Positions 4,570 to 44,900 of a DNA stretch of 64,000 nucleotides are shown here, piece by piece. The notes beneath the pieces were generated by a model. It searched no databases. It was given only the letters and a program-made list of their open reading frames with translations, and was not told where the DNA came from. The position numbers were made by a program, and so were the translations under genes. Numbering within the stretch: the first letter of the stretch is position 1; each line of letters begins with the position of its first letter. This DNA is from Veillonella montpellierensis DSM 17217 (lineage in GTDB: Bacteria; Bacillota; Negativicutes; Veillonellales; Veillonellaceae): the NCBI RefSeq assembly GCF_000426745.1, contig NZ_AUFY01000008.1, positions 1 through 64,000 of the forward strand, in the 5' to 3' direction.

Positions 4570-7500
4570 TTATTTTTCTTCTTCATCAGTAGATTCTACA
4601 TCAATGATGTGAGGTTCTTTTTTGACCACTTCAATTTTACGATAACGGCTCATACCTGTACCAGCAGGAATCAACTTACCAATAATGACATTTTCTTTTA
4701 AGCCCAATAATGGATCAATTTTACCTTTTATGGCTGCATCAGTAAGAACACGCGTTGTTTCTTGGAAAGAAGCTGCTGATAAGAAGCTATCAGTTGCCAA
4801 TGCCGCTTTCGTAATACCTAATAAGGTGCGTTTACCAGTCGCTGTTGTTTTACCATTTAGTGTTAAGCGACGATTTTCATCATTAAATGTATTTACATCA
4901 ATCATATCGCCTGGCAACATATCTGCATCGCCTGCTGTTTCAATTTTAATTTTATGTAACATTTGGCGCACGATAACTTCGATATGTTTATCATTAATTT
5001 CAACACCTTGTGATTTATATACTTTTTGTACTTCATATACCAAGTAACGTTGTGTTGCTTCTGTTCCTAATACGCGCATAATATCATGAGGATTTACAGA
5101 ACCTTCAGTCAAACGACCACCAACTTCTACCATATCCCCATCTTTTACGATAATCCGAGAACCATATGGAATTAAATAATCTTCTTCTACGCCATCGTTA
5201 CTAGTAATAAAGATTGTATTCGTGCCTTTTTTATTATCATTTGGCACTACACGGACAACGCCTGCTATTTCACTAATAATCGCATTGCGTTTAGGTTTAC
5301 GGGCTTCAAACAACTCTTCAACACGAGGCAAACCTTGTGTAATATCATCACCAGCAACACCGCCTGTATGGAATGTACGCATCGTTAACTGTGTACCTGG
5401 TTCGCCGATAGATTGCGCAGCAATGATACCAACAGCTTCACCCACTTGTACTTGACCGCCTGTACCTAAATCACGACCATAACACTTCATGCACACACCA
5501 TATGGAGATTTACAAGTTAATACAGAACGAATTTTAACAGTATCGTAGTATTTTACCACTTCGTCTGCTAGTTCTTCTGTAATTTCAGCGTTCAACGGAA
5601 CGATGACTTCGCCAGTTTCTTTATTAACTAATTCTTCTGCTGCAGTACGACCTACAATGCGATCTTTAAGTGGTTCAATAATACCGCTACCTTCTACGAT
5701 AGCTTCTACTTCGATACCATGAATTTCATTGTTGCGAACTTGTACTTCTTTTACATCGGATGCCAAAATAGCTTCGATGCCTTCTTCGGTTAATTTAGTA
5801 GCTGCTGGGAATATTTCATTACCTTCGCTATCAATAACGGCTGCTACCGTATCTTTTCCAAGCATATTTTGAATCATAGTCGTGCGAAGTGTTTCACGAA
5901 TACTATCATCTGTTTCACCTAATATCACTTTTTGTACCATATTAGTGTGATTAATTTCTGTATCACTACCTAAATGTACACCGCGTAATGCGATGGCTGG
6001 CACTTTATGGTTAGCGATTTCTTCTAACATCTCAGCTGTTAATATAGATTCTGCTGGAATAATAACTTCATTAGTATCTACATCAACGACTTCTTTATCA
6101 AGTACTCGTCCAATTAGTTTATCTTTCAATAACTGTACGGCTTGACGAGAGGATGTAGCCAATCGTGCTCGTTCACGAACTAAGTCAATGCCGACTACGT
6201 CACAGTCTTCTTCACGGACGATAACATCTTGCGATACGTCTACTAAGCGACGTGTTAAGTAACCAGAATCGGCTGTACGAAGTGCAGTATCCGCCAAACC
6301 TTTACGGGCACCATGAGACGATGTAAAGTAATCCAACACAGTCAAACCTTCTTTAAAGTTTGCCTTGATTGGCAAGTCAATGATTCGACCAGATGGATCG
6401 GCCATCAACCCACGCATCCCCGCTAACTGACGAATCTGTTGCTTATTACCACGGGCACCAGAAATAGCCATCATATATACAGGATTAAAGCCACGTTGGT
6501 CCGCTGCCATATTATCCATCATCGCATCAGTTACTTCTTCAGTCGCATCATTCCACAATTCAATGGTTTTACGATAGCGTTCTTCTTCTGTAATCAAACC
6601 ACGACGATACAAGCGGGATACTTTGTTAACTTCTGCGTCCGCTTCATTGAGAATATTAAATTTATTTTCTGGTACTTTAATATCTGCAATGGCAATCGTC
6701 ATGCCTGCACGACGAGCAAAGGAGTAGCCAAGCGATTTTACGCGGTCTAGTAATTCAGCGGTTTCTTCGTTACCAAATTTTTGGAAACATTCATCCACTA
6801 ATTTACCTACTGCTTTTTTATCCATAACTTTACCCAATGTATAGTGGCCATCGTCTTGTTTTATAAACTGACGAATTTCAGGATACAAAGCGTTGTTAAA
6901 GATTAAGCGACCTGCTGTTGTTTCTACACGGCCATATCCTTCAAGGCGAATGTATAGAATATCTTGTAAGCCGATCACACCTTGGTCATAGGCTAGCATA
7001 ACTTCATCATAGTTACTGAAATATCTTGCTTTTTCTTTCGTTTCTGGACGAATAACTGTTAAGTAGTATGTCCCTAGAATCATATCTTGTGATGGTACTG
7101 CTACTGGTTTACCATCTTTCGCTGCCAATATGTTATGGGATGATAACATCAATGTCCGCGCTTCCGCTTGTGCTTCCACCGATAATGGTAAGTGACATGC
7201 CATTTGGTCGCCATCAAAGTCCGCATTGAATGCTGTACATACTAATGGATGTAATTTAATAGCGCGTCCTTCCCAAAGAATTGGTTCAAATGCTTGAATC
7301 CCCAAACGGTGCAATGTAGGGGCACGGTTCAATAATACAGGATGTTCTTTAATAACTTCTTCCAATACTTCCCATACGCCAGAATTTACTCGTTCAATTT
7401 GACGTTTAGCCGCTTTAATATTGCTAGCTTGTCCACGTTCTACCAATCGTTTCATAACAAATGGTTTGAACAATTCTAAGGCCATTTCTTTTGGTAAGCC

Positions 7501-21153: not shown

Positions 21154-21721
21154 TTTCTAAGCTACCTATGCGGTAGTTAACAGGATCGCAGCTGTCAAAC
21201 AGGCATTACAAAATTTCTAAGCTACCTATGCGGTAGTTAACGTAGTAGTATTGAAGAGCTTCTGCCCACAACTTTTCTAAGCTACCTATGCGGTAGTTAA
21301 CAAAGAAGAAGTAGCGAGAAACAATTTTCGAATTTTCTAAGCTACCTATGCGGTAGTTAACGGTGATATGCTTATTTTGTTCTCTAATTTTGCTTTCTAA
21401 GCTACCTATGCGGCAGTTAACGTCTTTCTTGAAATAAAACCTTTGATTTGTGATTTCTAATCTGCCTATGCGGTAGTTAACATAATAAAAAGCGTACGAT
21501 GATAAGCGAAAGATTTCTAAGCTACCTATGCGGTAGTTAACTTAAGATATGCGTCATATCAAACACAATAATTTTTCTAAGCTACCTATACGGTAGTTAA
21601 CTTCAAGGCATCATCGTAAGCGAAAAACAAAGTTTTCTAAGCTACCTATACGGTAGTTAACGAAATATACATGCAGAAATTGAAGAATAAAACTTTCTAA
21701 GCTACCTATACGGTAGTTAAC
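21154..21721 (-). CRISPR. Type I-F CRISPR array, 10 repeats and 9 spacers
   Basis: Ten 28-bp repeats start at 21154 and recur every 60 bp (last 21694-21721), with nine 32-bp spacers. Read on the minus strand the repeat begins GTTAACTACC and ends GCTTAGAAA, with a CTACC/GGTAG hairpin that Csy4 would bind, like other I-F repeats. The orientation matches csy4, so transcription runs leftwards from a leader at 21722-21850. The three leader-proximal repeats carry TATA in the hairpin loop, where the older ones have CATA. Repeats at 21394 and 21454 carry stem substitutions. Confidence 0.98.
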
Positions 21722-21850: not shown

Positions 21851-22468
21851 TTAAAATTCTGGCACTGTACCATCAACACTTAGACCATATGCATTAAAAC
21901 GCCCCTGTTTAGGCATGTCTGTTAGCGTTTTCTTAATAAATAGACTGAAAGATTGTTTACTAGTCAAGCTCCTCATTTTTATATAGGGCATATTGCTAAT
22001 GCCTCGTTTCTGTTTCATAAAGCTAAGTGCTTCTTCATAGGTTACCCCTTCATGGCGTTTAGAAAAACGCTTCGCTTTTTGATGGACCGAGCCATCCAGT
22101 TGATAACGTGAATATGTCGCATAGCCTTTCACTCTTTTTTCTGGCACTGGACGAATCCCTTTTATGTGCAAATATTCCTCAAAGGCTTGCAATCTCCACA
22201 CCTGTTGTAATGTTTGCAAATCTTCTTCCTTATCGGCAAAAATTCTAATCACATTCGTAAATGGACTGCCATCTTCTTCATTTTCGTCCTTATCCTCTGC
22301 AAATAACAAATCATAATAAGGGAAAGAAATGGCAAACTCGATGCCATTATCTATCCGCTTTGCTTCAACAAAGGCAATGTGAAGCTGCATAAACAGTTTT
22401 CCCCACAAAAAAGACATGCTTATATCTGGTGTATGGAACAATGTAATTTCTTGGTAGAATTTCATCAT
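21851..22468 (-). CDS. csy4: CRISPR RNA endonuclease Csy4 (Cas6f)
   Basis: Csy4 cuts the pre-crRNA at the base of the repeat hairpin and stays bound to the 3' end. I start it at the ATG 22466-22468 (MMKFYQEITLFH), preceded by AAGGTGGGAAG, giving 205 residues; the longer frame would overlap csy3. It has the family segments SFLWGKLF near residue 20, His30 in QLHIAFV (the likely counterpart of catalytic His29 of the Pseudomonas enzyme), and a C-terminal FNAYGLSVDGTVPEF typical of Csy4. The csy3 stop is 1 nt upstream. Confidence 0.93.
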   Translation of the reverse strand: MMKFYQEITLFHTPDISMSFLWGKLFMQLHIAFVEAKRIDNGIEFAISFPYYDLLFAEDKDENEEDGSPFTNVIRIFADKEEDLQTLQQVWRLQAFEEYLHIKGIRPVPEKRVKGYATYSRYQLDGSVHQKAKRFSKRHEGVTYEEALSFMKQKRGISNMPYIKMRSLTSKQSFSLFIKKTLTDMPKQGRFNAYGLSVDGTVPEF

Positions 22469-22469
22469 A

Positions 22470-23525
22470 TTACTTCCCACCTTCACCAAAAACGCCACCA
22501 CGAATTAATACGGCCATAACATAGTGTTCGTCTTCTTCGCAAGATAAAGGTTCATTTTGGGAATATTTTTTAAATAAATCATAAAAGTTTATATTTTTTT
22601 CTTCTCTATATGTATAACTTAATGGTGTAACCGCCCCAAATGGTTCAATAGCAATTGGATATTCGCTAGTGCCTTCTACATATGCAGGATACCACGTGTC
22701 AATGGTTCGAATCGCATTATTAAGCTTTTGCGAGTGCATCGCCGCAATCTGATTGACTTGATATAAAACTTTACTTTTAGGATTATTTTTACCAGAAGAT
22801 CGTTCCTTATTTAATATCATTTCTTCACTAGGGTATACTTCTTGTCCCATCCCTACTAGGGCATGAGCCGTCACTTGTAACAATAAATACTTTTGATCCT
22901 TGCATACACTGGTTTCTCCTAAGAAGACTTCCGCTATATAGTGTGCCAATTCTTCTACCTGTTTATCCGTTCTATCAAAATCTTTGATGTTATACTCATA
23001 CGCATTGAATGTCCAAGTTTTATCTCCTTCTGGCAATTTTGCAGTAACTATCACTTCAATCTTTTCTGCTCCCACTCGATTACGCCATAAAAATCGTCCA
23101 TTCGCAATATTAAGAGCATATCGTTTAGCTAATTCAGTATAGCCATATTTTTCTGCATACGCATCGCCCATGGCTAATATTTTTTCATAGCGATCTAACA
23201 AACTACATGCTGTTGGTTTATGAACACCCGATAAGAATTTAAGGGAAAATTCTACAGTTAATGTATCTTGCTGTAACAGTAGTGATGCAAAATCAACTGC
23301 TTGTAAGTTAGCTGTTCCTAAATCTTCTTGCGATTTTGATGAATTCTTACTTTCACTTAGTGATACATAATGAGATTTAGTACCTCTCACAGATTTTTCT
23401 ACGACAGGAATCGGCTCACGCTGTGTATGCCGTTCATCCCACGTGGTACCATACATATACCCATCTGATGCTACAATCTTCTTTGCAAATGCTAATACTG
23501 CTAATTTCTCCGCCTTGTTTGCCAT
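22470..23525 (-). CDS. csy3: Type I-F Cascade backbone protein Csy3 (Cas7f)
   Basis: Csy3 forms the six-subunit backbone that coats the crRNA spacer in the I-F surveillance complex. It has 351 residues, close to the family norm of about 340. Typical pieces are the N-terminal LAFAKKIVASDGYMYGTTW, NIANGRFLWRNRVGAEKIEV and the later VGMGQEVYPSEE. The ATG is preceded by GGAG. It starts 2 bp after csy2 and is followed immediately by csy4. Confidence 0.93.
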   Translation of the reverse strand: MANKAEKLAVLAFAKKIVASDGYMYGTTWDERHTQREPIPVVEKSVRGTKSHYVSLSESKNSSKSQEDLGTANLQAVDFASLLLQQDTLTVEFSLKFLSGVHKPTACSLLDRYEKILAMGDAYAEKYGYTELAKRYALNIANGRFLWRNRVGAEKIEVIVTAKLPEGDKTWTFNAYEYNIKDFDRTDKQVEELAHYIAEVFLGETSVCKDQKYLLLQVTAHALVGMGQEVYPSEEMILNKERSSGKNNPKSKVLYQVNQIAAMHSQKLNNAIRTIDTWYPAYVEGTSEYPIAIEPFGAVTPLSYTYREEKNINFYDLFKKYSQNEPLSCEEDEHYVMAVLIRGGVFGEGGK

Positions 23526-23527
23526 AA

Positions 23528-24478
23528 TTATTCTCCTTCTACTCTACTAGTATTTCGACATACATAAAAACTATTACTATCATCATACGCATAGTGCCAA
23601 AAAATAGCGTCCATATCATAAATATGATGTAACATCTTGAATTCAGCTAAGGTGATAGCGGGTTCAACAAATCGATGTAATGTGGTAGGATCTCGTTGAT
23701 TTTTTACATGTTCTAATGACGTTACTCCTTTAAAACCTACCATGATAGGAATAAGCCAGCCCGGTAAGGCCTTTTTTTTATTCCACCGTTGTACATGCCC
23801 CTTGTCATCTTTCTCCGCTTCAACTGTAACCGCTAAACACGCCAATAACGTATCCAATGAAGATGCGTCATCAGGCATATCGGTAGCCATGTTATCCTTA
23901 CATGCATCCATTAATACATCATGACGATCCAATATTACATACCCCGGCATAAGTAATCGTTTAATCTGCTGCCACACATCCTCTTTCCCATATAATAATA
24001 AAGACTGTATCCGCCTTCTTTCTCCACCGCCGTGCCTGTGTAATTCGAGACCAAATCGAATAATATTACCACCGGCTAATGTAATCGTCGGCATCATATA
24101 CGCAACGGCCTCTTCAAGTTCTTCTTTACTATCGTTCGTAACCCCTGACACTTCAACAACTAATGATACATCTAAATGAATGCGTCCTTCTTCAATAAAT
24201 GACGGTCTACCTCCATCTTTTCTCAAAGGATTCGATGTGCTTATAATTGTAGAATATAACGAATGATTCTTATACGTATGTAATCGATGATGATGACAAA
24301 TAACTGCCGTTTGCACAAACTCTATTTGTGAAAGTCCTTGTCGTTCATTAATACGTCGCTGCAAGGCATGCACGCCACCTAGCCAACTTGTCATACTAGG
24401 AAATCCAATCGTATATAAACTATTCATAGCATTGGCATTTTCAATGTGTATATGGGGAATAATAAGATACCAACTCAT
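23528..24478 (-). CDS. csy2: Type I-F Cascade protein Csy2 (Cas5f)
   Basis: Csy2 caps the 5' handle of the crRNA together with Csy1. The 316 residues contain the family opening LIIPHIHIENANAMNS, then GFPSMTSWLGGVHALQR and a later GWLIPIMVGFKGVTSLE, as seen in other Csy2 proteins. Length agrees with the family (about 320). GGAGGTGA lies upstream of the ATG. It sits between csy1 (15 bp upstream) and csy3. Confidence 0.93.
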   Translation of the reverse strand: MSWYLIIPHIHIENANAMNSLYTIGFPSMTSWLGGVHALQRRINERQGLSQIEFVQTAVICHHHRLHTYKNHSLYSTIISTSNPLRKDGGRPSFIEEGRIHLDVSLVVEVSGVTNDSKEELEEAVAYMMPTITLAGGNIIRFGLELHRHGGGERRRIQSLLLYGKEDVWQQIKRLLMPGYVILDRHDVLMDACKDNMATDMPDDASSLDTLLACLAVTVEAEKDDKGHVQRWNKKKALPGWLIPIMVGFKGVTSLEHVKNQRDPTTLHRFVEPAITLAEFKMLHHIYDMDAIFWHYAYDDSNSFYVCRNTSRVEGE

Positions 24479-24493
24479 GTGTTATGTCACCTC

Positions 24494-25660
24494 CTATCGA
24501 AATATGTTTCTCGCAATCTTTTTAATATAATTAGATTCCACGTCAGCCCATGCGTCACTACCCTCAAGTTTCATTGTTTGGTACCTTCGTTTAAACCATG
24601 AGGCGATATCGTCTACAAGTAACTCAATATCTTCATTCGTCAATTCATCCATATGGTTCGCATCAAGCCATCTTTTTTGATGTATTGGCAACTTGTTATA
24701 TATTTCCTGATCGCTCCAGCCACCTTCTTCATTTCGTATGGCATAGACATACGTAAAGAGGCTATCAATAATGACTTCTATATGATAAGTAATACCTCTA
24801 CGTATGGAGGCATTATTATACCTTGTACCTACTAACTTACCCAACTTTTCAAAGGACTTCTCTTCATGATAATAGGGCAGTACGTCTTTAAAAAAGTCAC
24901 CTTTGAGCAATTGAATATCAGACCGTTCTGATAAATTTGGGGGCGGAACGGCCGGTAATAAATAGGCTTCACCATATTCACGACTATTAACTGCACTTAT
25001 ATTCTGAGGGTTAGCTCCCCCAAATTTAACAATTGTTGTATTAAGTATGTCTCGATAAGTCTCGCCATACCTATCTGCCTTATTATCAGTTGCTTCTTTT
25101 TTTATAGCTTCCCATTCTTTTAATACCTGTTTGATCGCAAACATTTGTCCCGATGGAGGTAGGACTGTTAACAAATGGTATTCTCCCGTCGAAACAGGAA
25201 AATAAACTTGTCGAAATCGTTCATCCGTGCTATCCAACTTCTTAGCATTTTCACTACGCAGCTTCAGCGCTTGCACCTTGGTTAACACATCATCAAATGA
25301 TACACCTACAGAATTGATATCTCGCACTACGCTTTCTTCTTTATCTAAAATATTTTCTAATACTGTTTTACCATTTTCTAATACGATGTACAAAAGCTTA
25401 GAACTACCACTATAAGTAGCACTATTAGGTGCTAGATCTATTGTCCTCTTGCTACGCCGTGTCGTAACATACCCGTCAACCCCCACCACATCAGACGGAA
25501 CTAGAAAATTAATTTTAGGAATACCTGGATGAGTAAATTTTCCTACATGAGTGGCTAATATGCATTCATCAATATTAGCCACCCTCTCCTCCAACCATTC
25601 CTTATCACTTTCCCCCTTCTTACCTGTACCTTCACGAATATGATCTAATAAGATACTCAC
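24494..25660 (-). CDS. csy1: Type I-F Cascade large subunit Csy1 (Cas8f)
   Basis: Csy1 is the large subunit of the I-F complex and takes part in PAM recognition. The protein is 388 residues, somewhat shorter than the Pseudomonas form (about 430). It has the N-terminal helical region and VANIDECILATHVGKFTHPG, followed by the conserved FGGANPQNISAVNS and YLLPAVPPPNL blocks of the family. The start codon is GTG at 25658-25660, after GAGGAGGT. It lies 12 bp after the displaced cas2-3 tail, so it should be on the same transcript. Confidence 0.9.
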   Translation of the reverse strand: MSILLDHIREGTGKKGESDKEWLEERVANIDECILATHVGKFTHPGIPKINFLVPSDVVGVDGYVTTRRSKRTIDLAPNSATYSGSSKLLYIVLENGKTVLENILDKEESVVRDINSVGVSFDDVLTKVQALKLRSENAKKLDSTDERFRQVYFPVSTGEYHLLTVLPPSGQMFAIKQVLKEWEAIKKEATDNKADRYGETYRDILNTTIVKFGGANPQNISAVNSREYGEAYLLPAVPPPNLSERSDIQLLKGDFFKDVLPYYHEEKSFEKLGKLVGTRYNNASIRRGITYHIEVIIDSLFTYVYAIRNEEGGWSDQEIYNKLPIHQKRWLDANHMDELTNEDIELLVDDIASWFKRRYQTMKLEGSDAWADVESNYIKKIARNIFR

Positions 25661-25672
25661 AGTTATACCTCC

Positions 25673-26381
25673 TCACGTAGTAGATTTAAATAACCCTAAT
25701 TCATCAGAATACTGCCAAGATTGATCCTCTCCATGTTGGATCGTGATTCTGCCATACACTTTTGAAAGTTCTTGTAAATTATCTTCAGTATACTCTAATT
25801 TCTTACTTCTTAGTAGCCATAGTAAACTACTTTCATAGTCCCTAGGTAACCAAATTTTATCAGTATAGGCCTCAGGCATCGTCCATCGATGAATATGCTG
25901 ACTTTCTTCACATTTTTTATAACCTTCACCATCAAAGATGGAAAATGACACGCCGTCATGGCTATACACGGCAAACAGCTCAAGTTCTTCAACCTTCGTA
26001 TTCTTTCTAAACGTATGGATGCGTTGAGGTATCGCCGTAAGCCACCAATACTCTTCCATCCACTTATCTACGGAATTTTTATGGCGCGCCGTTGTTTCTA
26101 TACTCTTACCATTAAACTCTTCCATCACACAATGTTCTAAGTCGATGAAACGCTCCTGTGGGTGTAATACGCTAGGCTTTACAATTCTTGGTATCGCATC
26201 TATCCGCGTAGCAACAGTAGTCCCCTCTAGCAATGTTTTCATATCATGTGCATTAAGAGAATGTTCTCTACTTTCATAGCCAGGATAATTAAATACAATT
26301 GTCTTATTTCTAGTAAGACGTTCACCATGATGTCTACAATATTCAACATATCCTTTTACGTTATAGTCCAGTATATATATT
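25673..26381 (-). pseudogene. Displaced C-terminal part of Cas2-3 (out of frame)
   Basis: This stretch encodes the missing C-terminal domain of Cas2-3 in another frame. Reading from about 26380, it gives ILDYNVKGYVEYCRHHGERL, then FNYPGYESREHSLNAHDM and about 190 further residues with WWLTAIPQRIHTFRK near the middle, all expected after the helicase. The first in-frame ATG (26240-26242) has no ribosome site, so independent translation is unlikely. The join to the upstream frame lies in the AT run 26372-26381; one more AT unit would restore a single reading frame. Confidence 0.85.
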
Positions 26382-29078
26382 AGGTTTTGTAATCTCCATT
26401 TCTACATGGCGATGTCGTAACACACGTCCCGCTAACTGAATAATCGACCTGAACGTAGACGGTTCTATGATGGTCCAGTCAAAATCATGATCTCGCCCCA
26501 CCTCTTCTACAGGGGTCGCCACTAACACAAATATCACATCATTGCAACCACTATGATCTAAATGGTTTCGAAGCGTCGAATCCGTTATATCAACAGGGTC
26601 GTTTAACGCACCTTTTCGTTTTAATACGGCATCTAAATGTTTTTCTTGCATATGTCGCAACAATAATAATTGGCGACTATGGTAGGTCATAATTTTAACC
26701 GCTACCTGCGTGTATTCATAATCATATAAAGCTAGACTCAAGTCAACACAAGTACTAATATTAGCCACTCTAATCACACCAAACGAAATACGTTTTCCCG
26801 TTTTCTTGTCGATACAGTGGTGTGCCTCATGCAGTATCGGTATTTGTTTAGCAATTGTTTGGTAGTATCTCTCTCTAATCGTTTTTGTATCATCTGTTGT
26901 TTCTAAAGCGGGTATCTCTAGAATAGAACCTTTTCGAAGGGGTATTTCTTGCTGTAATTTATTAACACGGTGATCGATAAATTTAGTATGTTGTCGATGA
27001 TAACTTGTCCTTTCATCGTCTTTCACCGTGTCAATAGACGTAGAAAACTCATCGCATAAAAGCTTAGCACAGTCCTTCTTATTGCTAAAAAAGCGATTAT
27101 GCACTGCCAGCCCTGCATAGTAGGTCCTAAACATACCTTCTGCCAAGTCGGGTGGTATGGTCGCCGATGATAATAATACATTTCTTCCCAGCATACCGGC
27201 CGTATGTACTAATCGTGAAATGGCCACTAAATCATCTTGATTAAAATCATCGATTTCATCTAGCACTAAATCTGATGACAGTAAGCGCAAAAACGGTAAT
27301 ATATACCGTCCCCCTTTTTTCGTTTCCGTAGCGCCCATAATATGATCTATGGTGGTTACCAATACTGGTTTTAATAGGAATGCTTGGTTTTTACGGTTAC
27401 TATTGATTGCCTTACTTTTAAAAAATAAGTCTAAAAATTGGCTCTGCTCATCTGACATATCATATTCATACAATATGTCTTCATCCATCAATTCTTGTGG
27501 TTGCCCTTGTAAACTAGCTACATCATCATTAGCTAATAACGCCTGATGGCTATCCAATCTAGTCCCCGCTTTCACAGTATGTTGTAATTCATGTAACTCT
27601 TGTACCGCACTCGAGCCAATAAGAACTGCTAAGTCATTCACATTTAAATGAATGCGCTCTCGGTATTCATCCCCCGTCTGTAAGGTCAACGTACGCAGCC
27701 CTAAGGCTAAAATAAATCGCAATGAATCATCATTTGAAATGGCCTGCATAATTTTAGCATTTGCAAATGTTTTTCCTCGACCAGTACTCGCCATATTAAC
27801 GCCGAAAAAGCATGTCCTATCAGAAGCCTGATTTTTATACTCTTTAATCTTATCAATCACTTTATCTTGCCATCTAAATTTATTAGGCGTATCTCGTTGT
27901 TCTTTCAGTGCTTTATTGTCATAAACACGGCTCATCCCCTCAGTAAATCGTGGCAATTGATGTGCAATTTGTAAAGCTTGTTTAGAAACTCTCAATAAAT
28001 GTTCTTCTAAATATTGCTTACATGTGCCTCGCTTTCCACACGTATTAGCCCACAATGTACTGTATTGCCATCTATGTTTTGAATGTCCATCCTTGTCTAA
28101 AGATGATACGTAGTGATCGCCTAGCATTAAACATAGCCTTGTATAATATAGTAGCAATCGTATCGAAGGGGTCCCTAATTGTGACATCCACGTATGTTGA
28201 CTAATTTCATTAATAGTGCGAGCCGCCCACTTTCTAACTTGTCGTAACCACGGTCCATCCTCTAATAATATGCCTTGAGAAAAAGTAAAACATGCCTCGC
28301 CTTTATCTATCATATGTTCATCATGCGTATATCCCCAATTCGCATTAATGATGGAAATCATCGTTTCAAAGGATTCACGTATGTCATATTCAACTTCTTG
28401 TATATTTTGTATTGCTGGCAATCGATGGTGTGAAAGAATCAACCAACTTAGCATGGTCGCTACAGGCGGTAATTTAGACAGTGTTCCTCTATGAGTCCTG
28501 TTCTTTTGTAAATAATCTAATATCGCATCTTCTGTAATCGTACCTGATACCAGTTGTTCTAGCCACGGCATATCATGTTTTGTATCACCAGTACTTGCGA
28601 CAAGTGCTTCAATTAATTTGCAAGATACCCATTCATGACGATAGGGGTCACCTTGTACACTTAATTCTCGCAACTTGGTTTGAAATAAATCAGACGCCTT
28701 TCCCCAATCATGGAGTAGGCCAGCTAATGCCGATAAGCATTTAACAATCGGTAAAAATTGCCAGTCATTTTCCCATTCGGCATGGGCAATATTCTTACCA
28801 GTACTCGCTATAGATACAATACCTGATGTATTAAAGCGTTGGCGATTACCTACAATCCACAATAACTCGCTATGATTTCTCGAGCGTATCCAATGACAGG
28901 CTACCGCCGTATTTTTCGTAGCGCTCCTACGTAATAAACGTTGTACACATTCTAATCCCGCTTCAGTAATAACGGTCTTCCACGTATTATCACCAATGCG
29001 GTCAGCAAAATGATCCAATATGTTTCTAACTGTATATAGCGCCTTCTTTTCGCTTACGCTGGAAAATATGACCATCAT
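26361..29078 (-). CDS. cas3: Cas2-Cas3 fusion nuclease-helicase, truncated by frameshift
   Basis: Type I-F Cas3 carries an N-terminal Cas2 domain and acts in both adaptation and target degradation. Visible in order: Cas2 domain (1-95, TAVACHWIRSRNHSELLWIVG), HD nuclease (His123-Asp124 in LLHDWGK, LSHH at 216-218, DH at 321-322), Walker A STGRGKT (431-437), DEID (607-610), SAT (638-640) and motif VI QLAGRVLRHR (881-890). It ends at residue 905 just after motif VI; family members run to about 1050-1130. All catalytic motifs are kept, the C-terminal domain is lost. It overlaps cas1 by an ATGA. Confidence 0.92.
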   Translation of the reverse strand: MMVIFSSVSEKKALYTVRNILDHFADRIGDNTWKTVITEAGLECVQRLLRRSATKNTAVACHWIRSRNHSELLWIVGNRQRFNTSGIVSIASTGKNIAHAEWENDWQFLPIVKCLSALAGLLHDWGKASDLFQTKLRELSVQGDPYRHEWVSCKLIEALVASTGDTKHDMPWLEQLVSGTITEDAILDYLQKNRTHRGTLSKLPPVATMLSWLILSHHRLPAIQNIQEVEYDIRESFETMISIINANWGYTHDEHMIDKGEACFTFSQGILLEDGPWLRQVRKWAARTINEISQHTWMSQLGTPSIRLLLYYTRLCLMLGDHYVSSLDKDGHSKHRWQYSTLWANTCGKRGTCKQYLEEHLLRVSKQALQIAHQLPRFTEGMSRVYDNKALKEQRDTPNKFRWQDKVIDKIKEYKNQASDRTCFFGVNMASTGRGKTFANAKIMQAISNDDSLRFILALGLRTLTLQTGDEYRERIHLNVNDLAVLIGSSAVQELHELQHTVKAGTRLDSHQALLANDDVASLQGQPQELMDEDILYEYDMSDEQSQFLDLFFKSKAINSNRKNQAFLLKPVLVTTIDHIMGATETKKGGRYILPFLRLLSSDLVLDEIDDFNQDDLVAISRLVHTAGMLGRNVLLSSATIPPDLAEGMFRTYYAGLAVHNRFFSNKKDCAKLLCDEFSTSIDTVKDDERTSYHRQHTKFIDHRVNKLQQEIPLRKGSILEIPALETTDDTKTIRERYYQTIAKQIPILHEAHHCIDKKTGKRISFGVIRVANISTCVDLSLALYDYEYTQVAVKIMTYHSRQLLLLRHMQEKHLDAVLKRKGALNDPVDITDSTLRNHLDHSGCNDVIFVLVATPVEEVGRDHDFDWTIIEPSTFRSIIQLAGRVLRHRHVEMEITKPNIYTGL

Positions 29079-30028
29079 AATGTATCACCTGATTTTCCAT
29101 ACGATAAGCTACATTCCTTCACGGTAGAAAACATAAAATCTAACACATGATGTTCTGTAAATTTCTGTAAGCAATTATCTCGAAAGTCCTGTTCTCTGCG
29201 ACCTTCTCCGGCAAATATAAATGCATATGGCAATACTACGGCATCTTTAATTAAATCGGCCACATCAAACACCAAGGCTCCACGTCTTGTTTTTCCATGC
29301 ATAACAGCAAAACCATGCGGTATCCCCAATGTCCAGAGCGTACAAGCCGCTAAGCCATACGCTAAATAATTGCCATGATTTAAATAGCTATTAGTTACAT
29401 CATTGCCGTCTTGATCCCTAGAAAATCCATCTAATCCCATAGTGTTAGCCGCATATTTATATACATTTTTCGTAAATCTAGCTTCTGCCGTTAGTAAGTC
29501 AGGTATAGACGTAACAGAGGCAATATCTCTTCTAAATATCCGTAGTGCTTTACTAATATCTAAACTGTCTACATCAAAATAATCTGTGATAGTCCTATCT
29601 GCACTCCAAATTTTTTCAAAAAAATTACATCGCTGTTCCTGAAATAACTTTGCCACAGTCAATCGCTTCTCATCATTAAACCAAAACGATAGCCACCCTT
29701 GTACATACTCTGTAGGCCGATATTCATTTTGTGGTAGCAACCATTCTATATCAGTGCCTGCTAATAATGGAGTGCCTCCACCGCCACAGAATCCTACGAT
29801 AACACCCGCTTGGCACAATAATCTCATAGCCGCCTGTGTAATCGATGTTCCCGTTCCTAATAATATGGTAGTCGTATTAGCAATTGGTATATTCCAGTAT
29901 AAATTTTCCTTATGACTTTCCGTTAAATACACCACGCGCCCATCTTTTTGCATAACTCTACATTTTTCTAAATAATAAATATTTGCTCTCTTCGAATGTA
30001 ATATTGTTTTTAAATCTGATGGATTCAT
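29075..30028 (-). CDS. cas1: CRISPR integrase Cas1, type I-F
   Basis: Cas1 integrates new spacers at the leader end of the array, in I-F together with Cas2-3. The 317 residues have the I-F Cas1 opening SDLKTILHSKRANIYYLEKC, LLGTGTSITQAAMR and the metal-binding residues Glu182 (LTAEARFTK), His244 (AVMHGKTRRG) and Asp255/258 (FDVADLIKD). It is the first gene of the cas operon. The ribosome site before its ATG is weak (GGTTAG). All active-site residues appear present. Confidence 0.95.
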   Translation of the reverse strand: MNPSDLKTILHSKRANIYYLEKCRVMQKDGRVVYLTESHKENLYWNIPIANTTTILLGTGTSITQAAMRLLCQAGVIVGFCGGGGTPLLAGTDIEWLLPQNEYRPTEYVQGWLSFWFNDEKRLTVAKLFQEQRCNFFEKIWSADRTITDYFDVDSLDISKALRIFRRDIASVTSIPDLLTAEARFTKNVYKYAANTMGLDGFSRDQDGNDVTNSYLNHGNYLAYGLAACTLWTLGIPHGFAVMHGKTRRGALVFDVADLIKDAVVLPYAFIFAGEGRREQDFRDNCLQKFTEHHVLDFMFSTVKECSLSYGKSGDTL

Positions 30029-42522: not shown

Positions 42523-42615
42523 AAGGAGTCATGTACATTGAACATACAGTACATATGTGTCTATATACAAGAACGTGTACATCAAGGCACCAATCCAGTT
42601 CTCTAAGTATATGCC

Positions 42616-42752
42616 ATAAACAAGAATCCATGCAGTAGTTAACATTGACTGTTAGAGTAAACCCTACTGTTACTTTTTCTAAGCTACCTATGCGGTAGTT
42701 AACGAGCAACGCGATCCTTGACGGAGTCGCCTATATTTCTAAGCTACCTATA
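42616..42752 (-). CRISPR. Orphan type I-F mini-array (one full repeat, two partial, two spacers)
   Basis: The stretch 42676-42703 is identical to the 28-bp repeat of the main array, in the same orientation. It is flanked by exactly 32 bp on each side (42644-42675 and 42704-42735). The right one is followed by the first 17 bases of another repeat (42736-42752); the left one is preceded by a degenerate repeat whose last 13 bases match with one change (42631-42643). No cas genes are adjacent; the main locus is 12.6 kb away. Confidence 0.88.
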
Positions 42753-42920
42753 GATATATCATAAGTACGTATCTATAGATATATATCATAAGCGAGTATT
42801 CATAGGGTATACCATAAACAACTATCTATGATATGTATCAAGCAAGTACCTATAGGATATACTATAAACAAATATCTATAGGTGTATCCCATAAAGAAGT
42901 GCCTATAGAGTACACCATAA
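42753..42920. repeat. Degenerate AT-rich tandem repeats
   Basis: Six or seven imperfect copies of a unit of about 24-30 bp built on the words CATAA and CTATAG, for example near 42766, 42790, 42819, 42863, 42888 and 42914. Copies differ at many positions, so this is an old array. It begins exactly where the truncated CRISPR repeat ends. Confidence 0.6.
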
Positions 42921-42929
42921 ACTAGAAAA

Positions 42930-43018
42930 ACAGAGGAAAGTTGATGCTGAACTGCACTCCAAAAATTGTGTTCAATTTTTGGAGTGCAGTTCATACGTTT
43001 TGATCAACTTTCCTCTGT
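42930..43018. repeat. Nested perfect palindrome, possible MITE or paired IS ends
   Basis: An outer 16-bp inverted repeat (42930-42945 and 43003-43018) encloses an inner perfect 21-bp inverted repeat (42948-42968 and 42973-42993) with a 4-bp loop. The inner arm, TGAACTGCACTCCAAAAATTG less its last base, resembles terminal sequences of IS3-family elements. There is no room for a transposase. It could also act as a bidirectional transcription barrier between pdxT and purB. Confidence 0.75.
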
Positions 43019-44452: not shown

Positions 44453-44876
44453 TCATATCGCTCCTTCATTGATAGCAGGGAGGGCATCGCCGTTCCCCAT
44501 TAGATTATCTACGTAATAATCATATCATATGCCCCTAACAGGGTCAACGAGCCAACTTATAAAATTAACACTATTTATAAATTTGACTAATTAATACATA
44601 TGTATGACTTCTACCTAATTGATGTGCTAGAATGTATAGCTATACAAAAAGTGACAGTATACACTGATCACTGATAGGCCATGTACGGAATACGACTATA
44701 TGATTATGGCATTGAACTTGAACAATGCATTCTGGTAAACCATGTACGTACTATGAATACCCTCTAACAAACACATCAGAACTAACTCTATCGGAGAAAC
44801 CATGTACGTCATATGAGTATATCAATTCTCGTTTTGCACCATGCGCACTAGTTAACAAACTATGTACATCATATGA
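44453..44876. other. Non-coding region with 60-bp periodic repeats
   Basis: About 420 bp between purB and the DUF454 gene. Apart from the repeats at 44671-44900 (listed separately) I see only AT-rich sequence. The plus-strand frame at 44725-44928 is a product of the periodic repeat, which has a length divisible by three, and is not a credible gene. Confidence 0.6.
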
Positions 44877-44900
44877 CTACAAGGATTCTGGTTTGGTCTT
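44671..44900. repeat. Degenerate 60-bp tandem repeat, four copies
   Basis: The core CCATGTACG recurs at 44679, 44740 and 44800, with CTATGTACA at 44860, giving a period of 60-61 bp. About 25-29 bp around each core is conserved (TCTGGTAAACCATGTACGTC form); the intervening 31-35 bp differ. The spacing imitates a CRISPR array, but the conserved part is too degenerate and unlike the I-F repeat. Confidence 0.65.

Follow-up and report, generated by a model that had tools for sequence, protein, structure and literature searches.

Dispersed type I-F repeat-spacer blocks in Veillonella montpellierensis and their possible relocation from the resident CRISPR array

The stretch of DNA analysed here (the window, positions 1-64,000 of contig NZ_AUFY01000008.1, assembly GCF_000426745.1) comes from Veillonella montpellierensis DSM 17217. 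It carries a type I-F system of clustered regularly interspaced short palindromic repeats (CRISPR), with a main array beside its cas genes and a separate tract of only two units in the gap between pdxT and purB. With moderate confidence, we read this second tract as a relocated piece of the bacterium's own I-F array, inserted as a ready-made two-unit block at a YYAT core. The tract is two units long, its junctions fall at the repeat centre, an in-register host tandem array lies on both sides of it, five similar loci occur in the genome, and it has no spacers in common with the main array. Apart from pdxT and the cas genes, the gene names used here, that of purB among them, are putative and were read from translations. 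The tract and its surroundings are built as follows.

42632..42751, minus strand (sense of the CRISPR RNA, crRNA): inserted tract, exactly 120 bp, equal to two CRISPR units permuted circularly to the repeat centre
42630..42643, minus strand: left (trailer-side) half repeat, matching the 3' half of the repeat at 13/14 positions in plus orientation
42644..42675, minus strand: spacer 1, 32 bp, no further match in own genome at E <= 0.001
42676..42703, minus strand: full I-F repeat, equal to the main-array consensus; Rfam CRISPR-DR4
42704..42735, minus strand: spacer 2, 32 bp, 56% GC, no further match in own genome at E <= 0.001
42736..42751, minus strand: right (leader-side) half repeat, repeat positions 1-16
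42597..42631, no strand assigned: left remainder of a 26-bp AT-rich tandem array, unit TACCTATAGGATATACCATAAACAAG
42752..42925, no strand assigned: right part of the 26-bp AT-rich tandem array

The evidence supports a true I-F mini-array that keeps the register of the main system. The central repeat is identical to the main-array consensus at 28/28 positions and matches Rfam RF01317 (CRISPR-DR4) on the minus strand at 41.1 bits, above the gathering threshold of 35, which bears out the perfect copy of the main-array repeat noticed in an earlier, sequence-only reading of this region. That reading was also correct in placing the repeat 12.6 kb from cas1 (29075-30028), and the segments of exactly 32 bp on either side (42644-42675 and 42704-42735), with partial repeats beyond them, are present as it described, a half repeat lying at each end. 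It argued against chance, and chance is excluded by a search of the whole genome tolerating up to 3 mismatches, which found 24 copies of the repeat, compared with none for the reversed pattern used as a control. The inner halves of the two terminal repeats match at 13/14 (left) and 14/14 (right) positions, the outer halves at 4/14 each; on the right the match extends to repeat position 16.

With the 120 bp (2 x 60) cut out, the two parts of the 26-bp tandem array come together in register, with a shift of one base at most. Among 29 offsets, the tandem score of the joined flanks peaks (75) on removal of exactly 42632-42751. The left flank alone has a tandem score exceeding that of 200/200 shuffles; its local alignment spans 42597-42624, and the last 7 bases up to the junction match the unit at 4/7 positions by eye. 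The AT-rich array previously said to begin at the right partial repeat is thus present on that side, but it is not one-sided, since it flanks the insert on both sides. A second locus, C21a (introduced below), behaves in the same way. There, cutting exactly 360 bp (6 x 60) rejoins a 29-bp tandem pair: 22/24 positions agree with the adjacent copy, compared with 13 at the second-best of the 21 offsets. In both loci the other copies of the host unit serve as a proxy for the empty site; the insertion core, or a one-base variant of it, is present in them.

The window tract was described earlier as an orphan. It does lie outside the main array, but it is not solitary, since the genome holds six loci of this kind. 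The five further mini-arrays beyond the main array are C21a (C21:8.6 kb), C21b (C21:17.2 kb), C8 (112.2 kb), C16 (18.4 kb) and C1 (24.5 kb). All five are intergenic between likely genes, as judged from the sequence and from calls of open reading frames (ORFs), with C1 abutting the end of a putative folE-like gene whose stop codon falls inside the inserted half repeat (L012 6618-6625, minus strand). The loci hold 2 (window), 6 (C21a), 2 (C21b), 3 (C8), 6 (C16) and 2 (C1) units, giving 21 spacers; 18 of these are 32 bp long, and the others measure 11 (in C8, where the spacer is cut), 30 and 33 bp. Half repeats broken near the dyad centre bound all six loci on both sides. Under a strict ungapped test (inner half matching at least 11/14), five of six left ends and five of six right ends pass, and both misses carry small indels. 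Placed by maximum likelihood, the left ends of five loci begin at repeat positions 15, 10, 12, 15 and 9, C16 having an indel and being placed by eye; the corresponding right ends stop after positions 16, 16, 19, 14 and 18, with C8, which likewise has an indel, placed by eye. Insert lengths are exact multiples of 60 in the window (120), C21a (360) and C21b (120). The flanks of the six loci are unlike each other and unlike the main leader (1/42 comparisons at p 0.005), no tRNAs were found in the four stretches examined, and a promoter scan gave 2 sites where 4.1 were expected. The chimeric leader-side end is present as a single copy in every locus; therefore no spacer was added there after relocation.

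The ends of ordinary arrays were examined by the same strict test in a control set of 80 loci around related Cas1f genes, which contained 57 arrays of at least 3 repeats (runs of 1-2 repeats were left out). Half repeats occurred at 0/55 visible leader ends and at 4/32 visible trailer ends, one of the latter (L138) resembling sequencing adapter. Trailer-side half repeats therefore have precedents, while leader-side ones have none in the control set. These counts bear on two proposals of the sequence-only reading, a remnant of a larger second array and a deletion junction. A remnant would have had its outer repeat halves decay or be deleted. The trailer-side precedents are compatible with such decay, but no control leader end is halved, the outer halves in the window belong to the in-register tandem array, and the ends of all six loci fall at nearly the same point of the repeat. 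Since excising exactly 2 x 60 bp rejoins the tandem array in register, both a remnant and a deletion junction fit poorly, and we consider a remnant very improbable.

The six junctions resemble one another. Written as host followed by insert, the host side ends in YYAT in every case: CCAT in the window, CTAT in C21a, C21b, C16 and C1, and TCAT in C8. Overlap with the repeat centre gives a shared core of 2 nt in the window and of 7, 8, 5, 8 and 6 nt in the other loci, a mean of 6.0. The null expectation was drawn at random from 13.6 kb of the same genome, mostly intergenic, with both strands counted and the repeat phase fixed at the centre; its mean is 0.74, and 0/200,000 resampled sets of six reach the observed total. 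The last three bases are unequal between the two ends in the window (CAT/TAT) and in C8 (CAT/TTT); the longer overlaps elsewhere can be read as target duplication or not.

Under the relocation that we favour, the repeat would be opened in its hairpin loop at the centre of the palindrome, and n whole 60-bp units would leave the array, by cut and paste, as a circle or fragment. RecA-independent, core-matched recombination would then join these units to the host at a short core similar to the repeat centre, the host target in the window and at C21a being an intergenic tandem array already in place. We infer that the units derive from an older state of the main array. A repeat variant beginning ATTTTAAG is present in C21a and C8 and is missing from the present main array. 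The 21 ectopic spacers are all absent from the main array, which has 9 spacers, and no two loci have one in common; the sole common stretch of at least 11 nt is one of 11 nt between two C21a spacers.

The main rival is templated copying (template switching), in which a replication fork in the host tract would switch at a CCTAT-like core into the repeat centre, copy n units and return at the same core, the array keeping its units. Whole units and core-sized microhomology would then arise without a special enzyme, and the hairpin loop could favour annealing at the repeat centre. Microhomology is possible anywhere in the 60-bp unit, however, yet all six loci are joined at the repeat centre. In addition, the main array retains none of the 21 ectopic spacers, nor does any second locus, which fits cut and paste better than copying, although age alone could also explain it. 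We regard copying as a serious but rather unlikely alternative.

Several observations weigh against relocation. The register peak in the window is not sharp, the score being 73 at an offset of -2 and 71 at +1, compared with 53-57 at far offsets. Three inserts are not exact multiples of 60 (C1, 121; C16, about 358; C8, about 157, with its spacer cut to 11 nt); these lengths accompany altered spacer lengths or small indels. The core overlap in the window is just 2 nt, which chance would reach with a probability of 0.18, and the core argument therefore rests on the set of six. Empty sites were inferred from tandem copies in two of the six loci and assumed in the other four; in those four, which have no tandem standard, the overlap could have been carried by the insert and not by the host. 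There is no same-species strain and no alignable relative in which empty sites could be read. Trailer-side half repeats are found in ordinary arrays too, as noted above. Colibacter, the nearest relative by Cas1f (71%), carries a single array that holds all of its 49 repeats, and shows no scattered repeats at 3 mismatches; a looser pattern gave one more match there, on the opposite strand. Finally, no recombinase was identified for the relocation.

The resident system from which the units would have come lies on the minus strand, and its components are listed below.

21154..21721, minus strand: main I-F array, 10 repeats and 9 spacers, with full repeats at both ends
21851..22501, minus strand: csy4/cas6f
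22470..23525, minus strand: csy3
23528..24478, minus strand: csy2
24494..25660, minus strand: csy1 (112.8 bits, under the curated cut-off of 169.4)
25673..29078, minus strand: cas3f (Cas2-3), in two ORFs of different frames, 26361-29078 and 25673-26242
29075..30028, minus strand: cas1f

Csy2-4 and Cas1f exceed their NCBIfam cut-offs, and Csy1 falls below its own. The first cas3f ORF covers positions 1-889 of the 1110-position profile, with the remainder in another frame, and interference may be impaired by this split.

Ectopic integration by Cas1-Cas2-3 was a further proposal of the earlier reading. In that case Cas1-Cas2/3 would have acquired spacers off target, at a site in the chromosome, and so created a neo-CRISPR; both Cas1f and the (split) Cas2-3 gene are present. 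Acquisition by Cas1-Cas2 should duplicate the host target. In its known form, integration is thus expected to leave two target copies, but the terminal repeats of all six loci are differing chimeras (host plus 3' half; 5' half plus host), the inner repeats are main-array repeats, and the middle repeat of the window tract is a perfect one. Such acquisition is very unlikely to have produced these loci. Passages of PMC11788318 describe non-canonical integration in non-array regions under Cas1-Cas2 overexpression, and the neo-CRISPRs of Nivala et al. 2018, as cited there, are like the present loci in forming repeat-spacer structures at non-array sites; they differ in that here no host target is duplicated and the units are ready-made, with array repeats. 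Passages of PMC12259127 place the distortion of the repeat by type I-F Cas1-2/3 at conserved steps inside the repeat's inverted repeats, which leaves room for an involvement of Cas1-2/3 and is no evidence for it.

One family of IS200-type Y1 transposase is represented in the genome by ten 5' and four 3' pieces, and it interrupts the assembly, the 14 pieces lying at contig ends (L147-L160). IS200 elements act on hairpins and insert without target duplication, and peel-and-paste of the repeat hairpin by this resident multi-copy transposase would be another way to move units. The left boundary of the element reads TTGTAC in all five readable copies (C29, C1, C10, C23 and C18; by eye), however, with no YYAT at or just before it in the four copies where this is visible. 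The right ends read GGTTATGATT or near (by eye). The boundary being TTGTAC and not YYAT, this mover is disfavoured, and it is the least probable of the explanations considered.

Matches to the spacers were sought in several ways. The self-match tests used the 2 window spacers and a joined query of 18 others (the 11-nt C8 spacer was left out of both these and the seed-match tests). The window spacers had no other match in their own genome at E <= 0.001, and the joined query had none beyond its own loci at that threshold, the best other match being at E 0.04. In viral_contigs, which was searched with one exact seed of each, the window spacers had no match, and their phage and plasmid matches were at chance level; the plasmid search covered the window array alone. 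Phages were searched with C21a, C8 and C21b, and viral_contigs with a single seed from each of C21a and C8, and no convincing match emerged; C16 and C1 were outside these searches. One 19-mer from a C21a spacer matched a viral contig, with 22/32 positions matching overall. The protospacer search with the main-array spacers was likewise without a convincing match.

The Csy4 hairpin folds only in the central window repeat (-7.0 kcal/mol), the chimeric ends giving -1.9 and -0.4. From what is known of I-F processing, a transcript of the window tract would be cut once, yielding two incomplete crRNAs. Because only the central repeat has kept the hairpin, the tract is probably a fossil and not a working source of crRNA. 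The sequence-only reading had also suggested a regulatory crRNA source. A regulatory or addiction locus, of the CreA-like or autoregulatory kind, found no support here. For the 20 ectopic spacers tested, out of 21, no CC-flanked seed match (at least 7 nt, or 9/10 key seed bases) lies in the cas promoter region or less than about 1 kb from their own locus; two 7-nt seeds, one from a main-array spacer (cas promoter region) and one from a window spacer (position 5041), were attributed to chance. Neither the window spacers nor the 18 others match the genome elsewhere at E <= 0.001, and the chimeric ends lack the Csy4 hairpin. One or two ectopic repeats would agree with the form of CreTA described in passages of PMC9458426, whose repeats also lie singly or in small number outside the array; those repeats are degenerate throughout, whereas the present ones are near-perfect inside and halved at the ends (C16 partly excepted), and no target was found for them. 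We consider a regulatory locus highly improbable.

Among 28 genomes of the family, the only Cas1f match over the family cut-off is that of V. montpellierensis itself, and the I-F repeat (up to 3 mismatches) is absent from 13/13 congeners. A 3.5-kb region of the window aligns to the 13 congeners over purB alone (72-74% identity, 13/13), apart from a short palindrome, and the empty site is therefore not directly readable in them. The 21-nt core of the repeat had no match in genome_contigs or viral_contigs, which may omit own or near records. Repeat matches were found in 11/12 genomes with a related Cas1f. Among the matches listed, from 5/12 genomes, all are clustered except for one copy some 4 kb away from an array, one pair standing apart, and a few solitary matches at 3 mismatches, and scattering may occur elsewhere. 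Other I-F loci have short sets of repeats off the long arrays and near cas genes, on the crRNA-sense strand: pairs 48-49 bp apart at L116 14352-14401 and L101 6309-6357, and a single repeat at L130 9672. These are possibly autoregulatory mini-arrays. Three Acinetobacter phage records have a repeat pair after an integrase gene; in phage L142 (2501-2600) a one-spacer, I-F-like pair directly follows the integrase, and its repeats are degenerate, not halved.

Two further features lie near the window tract. A strong 21-bp inverted repeat is located at 42948-42993, between pdxT and purB, and very similar palindromes occur at many places in the congeners. At 44671-44879 there is a second array with a 60/61-bp period; its four 28-bp blocks have diverged, and the segments between them are dissimilar. 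This array has no copy elsewhere in the genome and is perhaps a decayed array of another kind.

The window tract shares with type I-F arrays (Rfam CRISPR-DR4) the 28-bp repeat, the 32-bp spacers, the Csy4 hairpin and the resident csy1-4, cas1 and (split) cas2-3 genes. It differs from them in having no leader that we could find, only 2 units, and half terminal repeats fused to unrelated host DNA, and in being one of six scattered pieces, 12.6 kb from cas1. Multiple arrays are said in passages of PMC12814883 to arise by duplication, transfer or splitting of array fragments, and one consensus repeat is then found in several places, as here; repeat-centre junctions are not described in those passages, and the present loci share no spacers. 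Array deletions are attributed to recombination between repeats in passages of the review PMC8047081, which calls for direct data on how arrays lose and rearrange units. In the literature searched we recognised no description of relocation through the repeat centre, which is weak evidence of absence, as subscription papers are mostly outside its coverage.

Six relocated blocks breaking near the repeat centre would provide fixed junctions to test, by which relocation can be separated from acquisition, and they suggest a route to orphan arrays that lack cas genes. More speculatively, and at a probability that we would put rather low, the palindromic I-F repeat may itself be a recombination site, with groups of repeat-spacer units, excised as minicircles through the repeat centre, reintegrating at similar chromosomal cores. 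If this were true, CRISPR memory would act like gene cassettes, which could be archived or moved outside the array.
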